Of a stretch of DNA of 64,000 bases, positions 29,755-31,913 are shown piece after piece; position 1 is the stretch's first letter, and each line of letters opens with the position of its first letter. A program made the position numbers and the translations under genes. This DNA comes from an uncultured Bacteroidales bacterium (GTDB taxonomy: Bacteria; Bacteroidota; Bacteroidia; Bacteroidales; P3). The stretch is taken from contig CAJOFL010000020.1 in the NCBI GenBank assembly GCA_905233895.1, positions 1 through 64,000 on the forward strand. The letters are read 5' to 3'. The notes under the pieces are model-generated. The model did not search any database. It saw only the letters and a program-made list of their open reading frames with translations, and had not been told where the DNA came from.

Positions 29755-29762
29755 CAAATATA
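29755..29762 (-). promoter_or_regulatory. Bacteroidota-type -7 box TATATTTG (upstream of hisS, minus strand)
   Basis: Plus strand reads 'gtgCAAATATAct', reverse complement TATATTTGcac; it abuts the stop codon of the upstream peptidase ORF. Confidence 0.5.
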
Positions 29763-30539
29763 CTACTTTTTGCGGATATGACGTAAAAAAACTTCCGTGG
29801 CGAGCCACCCGAGGCTCACACCGATGAGGTTGGCCACCATGTCGTTGATGTCGAATCCGCGGTAAGGGAGGAGCCACTGCCCGCCTTCAGTCACAAGACC
29901 AATGAGGCATGAAAGGAGCCAAAGCAGACACCAGCGGCGGCGTGGCGCAAGATCCATCAGGAAGAGCGGCATAGGCAGGAACACGGAGGCGTGGAGCAGG
30001 TGGTCGAGCCGAAGGCCGAAGATATAGTTGTCAAGCGGCACTCCGAGACCGTTGAGCGGGGCCCACATGAGGACTGCCAGCGCGGCGAAATACCACGGCC
30101 GGAGTTGTTTGCGTCCTTTCTGGCCGAGGAAGCGTATGGCGGTGTTGCGCATGCGCTTGCGGCGCAGCGAGCGGCGCGAGAGGCGTTCCCAGTGCGGATC
30201 GCCAACTGTGAAGGCACGGCCGTCACGGTCGTGGGCAGCCACCAGACGCGCCACAATGTCGGTGCGGTATACCTGCTCGGTACTGTAGCAGTTGTCGCCC
30301 TGGATGATGTAGCGGTCTCCCTCGATGGCAATAACGCGGTGTAGCAGATGAAGTCCGGCGTAGCGGAAGAGAACTACGTCGCCCACCTGCGGGTCGGCCT
30401 CGAGTGGCGCCAGCGTCACGCGGTCGCCGTCGGCTAGGGTGGGTTGCATGCTGGTGCCGCGAAGCACGATGGTCACCGGCCCACCCTCGCGCAACCGTTC
30501 CTCAACGGCGGCGAAGAATATGTGATTCTCAACTTCCAT
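29763..30539 (-). CDS. S24/S26-type (SipW/Sec11-like Ser/His) peptidase domain fused to a C-terminal VanZ-like membrane domain
   Basis: N-terminal '[59 protein letters not shown]' (Ser at GTSM, His at LLHRVI, GDN box); C-terminal TM region '[69 protein letters not shown]' (VanZ-like). Confidence 0.75.
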
Positions 30540-31377
30540 AAATGGTTCTATGACTCAAGCAGGCCGCGTCGGCGTCGGGAAGGCAGCCGAGAAGGTAGGC
30601 GGGGGTGTGTTTTATCACTGCCGAGACGAAGCGCACCGTCATGTCGAGGCAGCGCTCATCGTGGGCCATTGCCGGCGGGCAGGAGGGCTGCAGCGCGGCG
30701 AAGGCCTCGATGGTGGCAAGTCGCCGTATGTTATTTTCAGGCCGTTGCTCTAGTCGCAGGAGTGCGGCCACGGGGTAGTGCTCCTGGCGGTAACAGTGAG
30801 TCTTGCCGCTCCAGGGCGAGCCATAGACCACGGCCGGGCCATCCTTGGCGGCGGCCAGTATAGGGCTGTCATCGTTGAGGAGATAGGTGCCAGGGATATT
30901 CTCGAGCCAGAGGCGGGTGTGGGTGCTTTTGCCGGTACCGCTCTCAACAGCACGGCCGTCGCAGACCACCACTGACGAATGCACCGGCATCCGTCCACGA
31001 CCGGCTCCAATCATGCAGTAGGCCAGCCAAAGGGCGAAGCGCAACTTGCCGTCGCTGTCCATGGTAGTTACAGCGGCTCCTAAAGGTTGGCGCGGGTCAA
31101 AACGCACCTCCTCCGATGAACTGAAGCGGTAGTGGTAGATTCCATCGGCATCCACGCCGAAGTAGCACTCGACATTGCCATCAAGAATCTTAAAGCGATG
31201 TAGTTCACACAGTTGAGACATCTGTAGGCAGGAATCTAGAGCAATGACGATGTCTGGATTATTTTCTCCGCACAAGGCGAACGCCGTCATGCCTGGTAGA
31301 GCCATTGCCCGCCCAACCGAGTCGCCGCCCGTGAGGGCCAATGCAAGTCCGCCAATTGCCAACTGCGCGCTACTCAT
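30529..31377 (-). CDS. HPr kinase/phosphorylase-related P-loop protein (serine-kinase-like)
   Basis: 'VHSSVVVCDGRAVESGTGKSTHTRLWLENIPGTYLLNDDSPILAAA...VVYGSPWSGKTHCYRQ': HPrK-like HS/P-loop/DD arrangement. Confidence 0.7.
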   Translation of the reverse strand: MSSAQLAIGGLALALTGGDSVGRAMALPGMTAFALCGENNPDIVIALDSCLQMSQLCELHRFKILDGNVECYFGVDADGIYHYRFSSSEEVRFDPRQPLGAAVTTMDSDGKLRFALWLAYCMIGAGRGRMPVHSSVVVCDGRAVESGTGKSTHTRLWLENIPGTYLLNDDSPILAAAKDGPAVVYGSPWSGKTHCYRQEHYPVAALLRLEQRPENNIRRLATIEAFAALQPSCPPAMAHDERCLDMTVRFVSAVIKHTPAYLLGCLPDADAACLSHRTIYGS

Positions 31378-31642
31378 CTATAATCATATCATTTTGGCGC
31401 ATCTCACGCACCCATTTTTCGGCGTCGAGCCGCGCGGTGGTCTCGTCCACCTCGTACTCGTCGGTAAGTACACGCACGGCGTCATCCACGCCGAACTCAC
31501 GGCCGCGCAGTTGGTTGTAGAGCAGCAACGAGCTCTCGTTCAGCGCAATGACAGTGGTCATATCCGTTCCGTTCACGCCGACACGCATCACGATATGCTC
31601 GCCGGCCACCTCGCGGACCTTCATCTTGGGGTTGATTCTCAT
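31370..31642 (-). CDS. PqqD-like / RiPP recognition element (RRE) family protein
   Basis: 90 aa 'MRINPKMKVREVAGEHIVMRVGVNGTDMTTVIALNESSLLLYNQLRGREFGVDDAVRVLTDEYEVDETTARLDAEKWVREMRQNDMIIDE'; PqqD winged-helix pattern (beta strands, 'ALNESSLLLYNQL', 'LTDEYEVDETTARLDAEKWVREM'). Confidence 0.75.
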   Translation of the reverse strand: MRINPKMKVREVAGEHIVMRVGVNGTDMTTVIALNESSLLLYNQLRGREFGVDDAVRVLTDEYEVDETTARLDAEKWVREMRQNDMIIDE

Positions 31643-31668
31643 CGTCCAAAAGTATTGTTTTCAGGCTG

Positions 31669-31676
31669 CAAAGATA
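31669..31676 (-). promoter_or_regulatory. Bacteroidota-type -7 box TATCTTTG driving the PqqD/HPrK/S26 unit
   Basis: Plus strand 'ctgCAAAGATAcgactttttt', reverse complement 'aaaaaagtcgTATCTTTGcag', about 26 bp before the PqqD start codon. Confidence 0.6.
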
Positions 31677-31913
31677 CGACTTTTTTCCCGTTCCTGCAAA
31701 TATTTTTTATATCCAGTCACGGTGTTGCCCCTTACTTGACACGGCGTTGGGAGGTAGTTGTAAACTTGTTGAGTAAAAACGCCTCTACCAAACGCGTTAT
31801 AGTGTTTCGCTAATAAGTTGATTCTCTATCTCGTGAGACCTTGCAAACTGACGGAACCTCACTTTTTTTCACCGTCTATATACGATTTTCAACCTCTATC
31901 CGTTATTAAAAAT

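Follow-up and report, generated by a model that had tools for sequence, protein, structure and literature searches.

Linear polyphosphorylated peptides (LPP) were published in May 2026 as a RiPP family with the components LppA, LppB, LppK, LppS, LppD and LppN (PMC13381572). LppB is the RiPP recognition element (RRE), LppK phosphorylates Ser3 of the core and LppS is a SipW-like leader peptidase (triad S29/H68/D93) that requires LppB; LppN and LppD are also part of the set (PMC13381572). The precursors follow the pattern YxxPxVLxHQxIxFETxxS, the Ser of which is the phosphorylated residue, and the family is stated to be restricted to Bacillota (PMC13381572). Phosphorylated lasso peptides have been described as well, namely paeninodin, pseudomycoidin and Bsf, with BsfA phosphorylated at Ser3 (PMC10368454). 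Here we describe an operon from an uncultured Bacteroidales bacterium that is probably a compact Bacteroidota version of LPP-type RiPP maturation machinery, and which would act on YxAP peptides encoded in trans. The support is computational, and consists of the protein families, their catalytic residues, conservation of the unit, a peptide family, its co-occurrence with the kinase, and adjacency of peptides and kinase in some genomes.

The window, i.e. the whole 64-kb stretch of DNA that was analysed, comes from a 2.34-Mb draft assembly of 68 contigs. It contains the following features:

31669..31700, minus strand: Bacteroidetes-type promoter, TTTG-N20-TATCTTTG (two-box motif search)
31370..31642, minus strand: PqqD-family discrete RRE, 90 aa (Pfam PqqD, PDB profile match)
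30529..31377, minus strand: HprK/PEPCK-fold peptide kinase, LppK/BsfK-like, 282 aa (AlphaFold2, Foldseek, invariant residues; one copy in the genome)
30922..30948, minus strand: Walker A segment of the kinase, altered (V-ESGTGKST, residues 144-152; 12 bp are missing in frame between 30946 and 30945)
29763..30539, minus strand: S26 peptidase (SipW/archaeal-type, Ser/His/Asp) with a C-terminal VanZ-like membrane tail, 258 aa (Pfam; catalytic S30, H67, D82)

A preliminary description of this DNA had read three overlapping minus-strand ORFs here, and its coordinates, sizes and overlaps (8 bp between RRE and kinase, 11 bp between kinase and S26) are exact. The promoter-like box that it placed upstream of the unit is real and fuller than described, being a two-box promoter (TTTG-N20-TATCTTTG) that ends 26 bp before the first ATG, that of the RRE gene. 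Matches to the two-box motif number seven in the window against 0.58 expected from shuffled sequences. The neighbouring hisS had been credited with its own box, TATATTTG, which is indeed present at 29755-29762; however, the two-box search of the window found no TTTG partner for it, leaving a separate hisS promoter, and thus independent transcription, unsupported. Judging by reading of the sequences, the flanks are housekeeping genes, with hisS downstream and a C-terminal processing protease upstream on the opposite strand. As described before, neither a cyclase nor an obvious precursor lies nearby: the genes that flank the triplet include no recognisable cyclase, and no peptide of the YxAP family occurs anywhere in the 64-kb window. 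No exporter adjoins the triplet in the window, nor in loci L034-L063, and the PF14907 NTP transferase is absent from the operon.

The 90-aa protein matches Pfam PqqD at 41.6 bits (cut-off 23.4), and a profile built from 20 of its relatives finds the lasso RRE TfuB1 as its best PDB match (6jx3_B, E 4.6e-7). Both results support its identity as an RRE of the lasso/PqqD type, as had been suggested. The third ORF matches both S26 (33.4 bits, cut-off 22.9) and VanZ (38.3 bits, cut-off 30.1), and the predicted catalytic residues S30, H67 and D82 are conserved in 102, 103 and 100 of 103 sequences, respectively, which bears out the Ser/His-type S26 peptidase with a VanZ-like tail. For this protein, single-sequence structure prediction gave a pLDDT of 43.9 and we make no claim on its topology. 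The 282-aa protein has no Pfam match and weak NCBIfam matches (ScmC at 14.8 bits against a cut-off of 125), while a sequence search of the PDB returned P-loop noise only, so that a fold search was needed. Its AlphaFold2 model (pLDDT 95.7) was matched by Foldseek to PEPCK (1.5e-7) and HprK/P (1.2e-3), in agreement with the HPr-kinase relationship claimed earlier. The HprK/PEPCK superfamily includes the lasso-peptide kinases, whose H-G-G-G-K-S-D-D motif is kept in the family of this protein. Residues H133, K150, S151, D169 and D170 are invariant among 62 sequences, and BsfK has a matching H/K/S/D/D catalytic motif (PMC10368454).

The kinase is a single-copy gene in the window genome and is present in 31 of 101 genomes of the family and in 29 of 31 of the genus. 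RRE, kinase and S26 stay together in about 28 genomes while the flanking genes change: the triplet is found next to hisS, a PBP1A-type gene, glmS, ackA, or polyprenol-phosphate mannosyltransferase-like and dipeptidyl-peptidase-like genes (names again by reading of the sequences). Beyond the family, at least 593 kinase relatives were found in 85,462 species-representative genomes, all of them, among the matches listed, in Bacteroidota. Among the best 80 of these at least 593 relatives (loci L122-L201), the kinase is directly followed by S26 in 74, is preceded by an ABC exporter in 38 and has an NTP_transf_5 gene in its vicinity in eight. The grouping of RRE, kinase and S26 is thus more than chance, and conservation of the triplet as a unit, which the preliminary description had proposed to check in related genomes, holds across several housekeeping contexts. 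Two architectures can be told apart, a compact triplet with VanZ-tailed S26 and no exporter versus an exporter cluster with a short S26. Long-tailed S26 and exporter are nearly exclusive (19 and 35 loci, both in 1, neither in 7; p = 2.6e-9), a pattern that is partly phylogeny. One may speculate that the membrane tail of S26 compensates for the missing exporter. In Alistipes-type loci (L150, L178, L199) the kinase-S26 pair adjoins a UvrD-like helicase gene, and no RRE was found in the locus.

The coupling of kinase and S26 also bears on whether the operon could be left over from, or accessory to, a phosphorylated lasso cluster (paeninodin/Bsf type) with its cyclase elsewhere. RRE, kinase and NTP transferase are common to the phosphorylated lasso systems (PMC10368454, PMC13381572), and the leader motif of the peptides described below is lasso-like. 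Nonetheless, in 74 of the best 80 loci the kinase goes together with S26 instead of with the lasso leader peptidase PF13471, which was found in none of nine genomes, the window genome and eight others. The absence of PF13471 makes a lasso cluster a most improbable origin.

Candidate substrates emerged from Bacteroides, Dysgonomonas and Prevotella records, in which small ORFs close to the kinase have in common Y.(A/S)P.(hydrophobic)E..EV.VE.GF..S. A profile of seven such peptides (A3), independent of those of the window genome, found three peptides in that genome, on contigs C24, C42 and C26 (E 2.7e-4, 0.06 and 0.07), all clear by inspection, with leaders MKKQYLPPTITVVTFKVENGYASS..., MNMEKKLYNAPQITVVTFRAERGYAESG... 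and MAGKTYQAPEIIVVRFAMERGYALST... Adding these three gave profile A4, which finds them, as rows of the profile itself, at E 6e-15 to 2e-13. Across the set, 56 of 63 distinct peptides fit Y..Px9E.G, and Ser stands at position 20 in 53 of these 56. The leader reads YxAPx(I/L/V)...ExG(F/Y)AxS, ending in ExG(F/Y)A with the near-invariant Ser just after. The family has no convincing Pfam or NCBIfam match, and when the sequences were reversed as a control, the regular expression matched none of 25618 small ORFs. In some genomes the peptides adjoin the kinase: in L313 the genes for peptide, kinase, S26, NTP_transf_5 and ABC exporter follow each other in this order on one strand, and in L169 and L200 the peptide is directly upstream of the kinase.

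The occurrence of the peptides follows that of the kinase. Peptides matching A4 are present in 31 of 31 kinase-positive genomes of the family, with up to 23 copies per genome, and absent from G080 and G085, the two genomes of the genus that lack the kinase; these counts are not phylogenetically independent, and the pattern in the genus may reflect one loss event. G005 and G028 have one Pro-less peptide each and no detected kinase; a sensitive kinase profile likewise found no kinase in these two genomes, nor in G080 and G085. Peptides without the leader Pro (YxKATVEV) are seen in genus g5 (L277, L282, L283), occurring in G038, where S26 is not adjacent, and in G005 and G028. In a survey of 295 genomes of the order, with kinase carriers defined by a kinase E below 1e-30, peptides were found in 12 genomes, 8 of them among the 18 with the kinase and 4 among the 277 without it (Fisher p = 1.5e-8; p = 1.6e-7 without the window genome), again without phylogenetic independence of the counts. 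The remaining positive genomes at this level fall in six other families. Ten of the 18 carriers gave no peptide match, perhaps because the short profile fails to reach diverged peptides. The suggestion that the substrate is encoded elsewhere is supported by a candidate family in trans whose presence tracks the kinase.

A further reading of the triplet is that it serves the TIGR04133 radical SAM/TIGR04134 lipoprotein system, with RRE and kinase acting on MYGVP lipoproteins modified by the radical SAM enzyme. TIGR04133 occurs in 31 of 31 kinase-positive family genomes, and contig C35 of the window genome encodes a TIGR04133 radical SAM enzyme, a lipoprotein and a 49-aa lipopeptide. In G017 (L051/L167) lipoproteins, radical SAM, RRE and kinase even form one operon, in which the radical SAM and RRE genes overlap by 4 bp. 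However, G017 is the only case among the radical SAM loci examined where RRE and kinase stand beside the radical SAM gene; in the window genome the latter is on another contig. Moreover, G080 and G085 keep TIGR04133 although they lack the kinase, the association with the kinase at the order level is weak (8 of 18 versus 61 of 277, p = 0.04), and the TIGR04134 lipoproteins look Sec/SpII-exported and lack the kind of YxxP leader that the peptides have. Although the family survey and G017 spoke strongly for it, this reading failed on G080, G085 and the order-level test, and we consider it unlikely. A literature search found no publication on TIGR04133/TIGR04134. The loci themselves show some features of their own. 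On C35 (L094:6828-8639) TIGR04133 is preceded by a TIGR04134 lipoprotein of 182 aa and the 49-aa lipopeptide, both with MYGVP, and this lipopeptide (MKVRILKAKHWLMLALLSLMGFASCSKDDKEDDIRMMYGVPEKTYNPRN) resembles a lipidated RiPP precursor reduced to the minimum. In G038 (L098:6716-8825) the TIGR04133 gene comes directly after a tandem array of four to five lipoproteins, of which several carry YG(C/T/V)P. A YGxP-like motif near the lipidated Cys is found in both radical SAM subtypes, suggesting a modified site. The G017 locus (L051:9203-12390), with two YGxP lipoproteins, radical SAM, RRE and kinase and no S26, might be a hybrid of both systems.

Returning to LPP-type maturation of YxAP peptides, food for further study is the company that the peptide genes keep. 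By our own regular expressions, which are approximate, a lipoprotein or T9SS-CTD-like gene lies within 200 bp on the same strand in 33 of 47 peptide loci, and a lipoprotein is directly downstream in 23 of 47, as opposed to 28 of 371 control genes scored as lipoproteins by the same rule. These neighbours include PARCEL/LRR-type, BACON/FISUMP-type and C10-protease-T9SS proteins; in the window genome, the C42 peptide begins 24 bp past the gene of a 606-aa lipoprotein. Tentatively, one central cytoplasmic operon for recognition, phosphorylation and cleavage could serve many peptide genes spread over the genome, every one of them with its own surface lipoprotein or T9SS-secreted protein as partner, and the phosphopeptides could be small partners, tags or regulators of surface proteins rather than antimicrobials. 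If true, this would provide the LPP type with a function and with a trans-acting organisation, neither of them described so far.

By homology, maturation might proceed as follows. The RRE would bind the leader YxAPx(I/L/V) of short cytoplasmic peptides encoded elsewhere, and the kinase would phosphorylate the near-invariant Ser just past the leader, in ExG(F/Y)AxS. The S26 peptidase, anchored by its membrane tail, would then cut off the leader near G(F/Y)A from a peptide presented by the RRE. S26 enzymes usually prefer a small residue at the cleavage site, and some of the peptides carry E, Q or V there, which makes the placement of the cut tentative. The variable core, rich in Gly, Asp and aromatic residues, would exit through an exporter encoded outside the operon; its partners or targets would be the surface lipoproteins and T9SS-secreted proteins encoded next to the peptides.

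The kinase step calls for caution in this genome. The P-loop reads LGESGTGKST in 30 relatives (one with LGDSGVGKST) and AVESGTGKST in the window kinase, which lacks four residues just before it, including the first Gly of Walker A; among the relatives compared, this is seen in this genome only. In BsfK, full activity depends on the equivalent Gly163 (PMC10368454). The missing residues make the activity of the window kinase doubtful, and the enzyme may be impaired here; the deletion is known from a single MAG, in which assembly or strain error and decay are both possible. One could thus imagine that the triplet matures YxAP peptides with an inactive kinase in this species, RRE-guided cleavage alone remaining. 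The 12-bp in-frame deletion and the mere three peptide copies in the genome fit such a scenario, as do the intact catalytic residues elsewhere in the kinase and the open reading frames of all three genes; the possible error in a single MAG and a fold prediction that stays confident through the loop (block 141-150, pLDDT 89) speak against it, and we hold it to be quite improbable. Recognition, phosphorylation and cleavage as originally suggested gain credibility from the lasso-like RRE, the kinase motif of the family, the S26 triad and the in-trans peptides; in this genome the altered loop puts the activity of the kinase in doubt.

How does the system compare with those already described? The lasso systems share with it an RRE and an HprK-like kinase of a family with the common H-G-G-G-K-S-D-D motif, as well as a YxxPxL leader, but the operon has S26 in place of a transglutaminase-type B2 peptidase, and no cyclase in the locus. 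Likeness to SynChlorMet (ScmC kinase-like, ScmD PqqD-like) comes down to ScmC being the only NCBIfam likeness of the kinase, far below cut-off, and the locus has no ScmE/ScmF radical SAM enzymes. The window genome also encodes TIGR04133/TIGR04134, which in one case shares an operon with RRE and kinase and whose association with the triplet is weak outside the family. A literature search for PqqD with HPr kinase in Bacteroid- found no publication. Nevertheless, the label "uncharacterised" given to the system holds only in part: the homologous gene set has already been characterised in Bacillota as LPP (PMC13381572), while the Bacteroidota peptide family is unlabelled. The function of LPP is not known from the 2026 description, and a Bacteroidota set with its own unlabelled precursors would enlarge the class greatly and assign a role to three genes whose annotation in many gut bacteria is vague. 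The peptide genes beside surface-protein genes offer a concrete clue to the role of the phosphopeptides.

The differences from LPP are several. Besides the phylum (Bacteroidota versus Bacillota), the leader is YxAPx(I/L/V)...ExG(F/Y)AxS with a Tyr-to-Ser spacing one residue longer, the operon has neither the MsbA-like exporter nor the PF14907 NTP transferase, S26 is fused to a VanZ-like tail, and multi-copy precursors are encoded in trans beside surface-protein genes. Three PF14907 copies do exist elsewhere in the window genome, in sugar/polysaccharide-type loci that hold no cluster-type exporter and no peptides. We do not claim membership of the LPP clade, given that the operon is short of two cluster genes. 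On the other hand, both systems combine a discrete RRE, an HprK-like kinase (altered at Walker A in the window copy, intact in relatives) and a SipW-like Ser/His/Asp S26 leader peptidase, whose S30/H67/D82 parallels S29/H68/D93 of LppS, with precursors in which a YxxPx(hydrophobic) leader is followed directly by a conserved Ser. Many Bacteroidota loci add an ABC exporter and some a PF14907 NTP transferase, and some of the clusters lie within polysaccharide loci, as in LPP. As far as sequence tells, the system would work like LPP.
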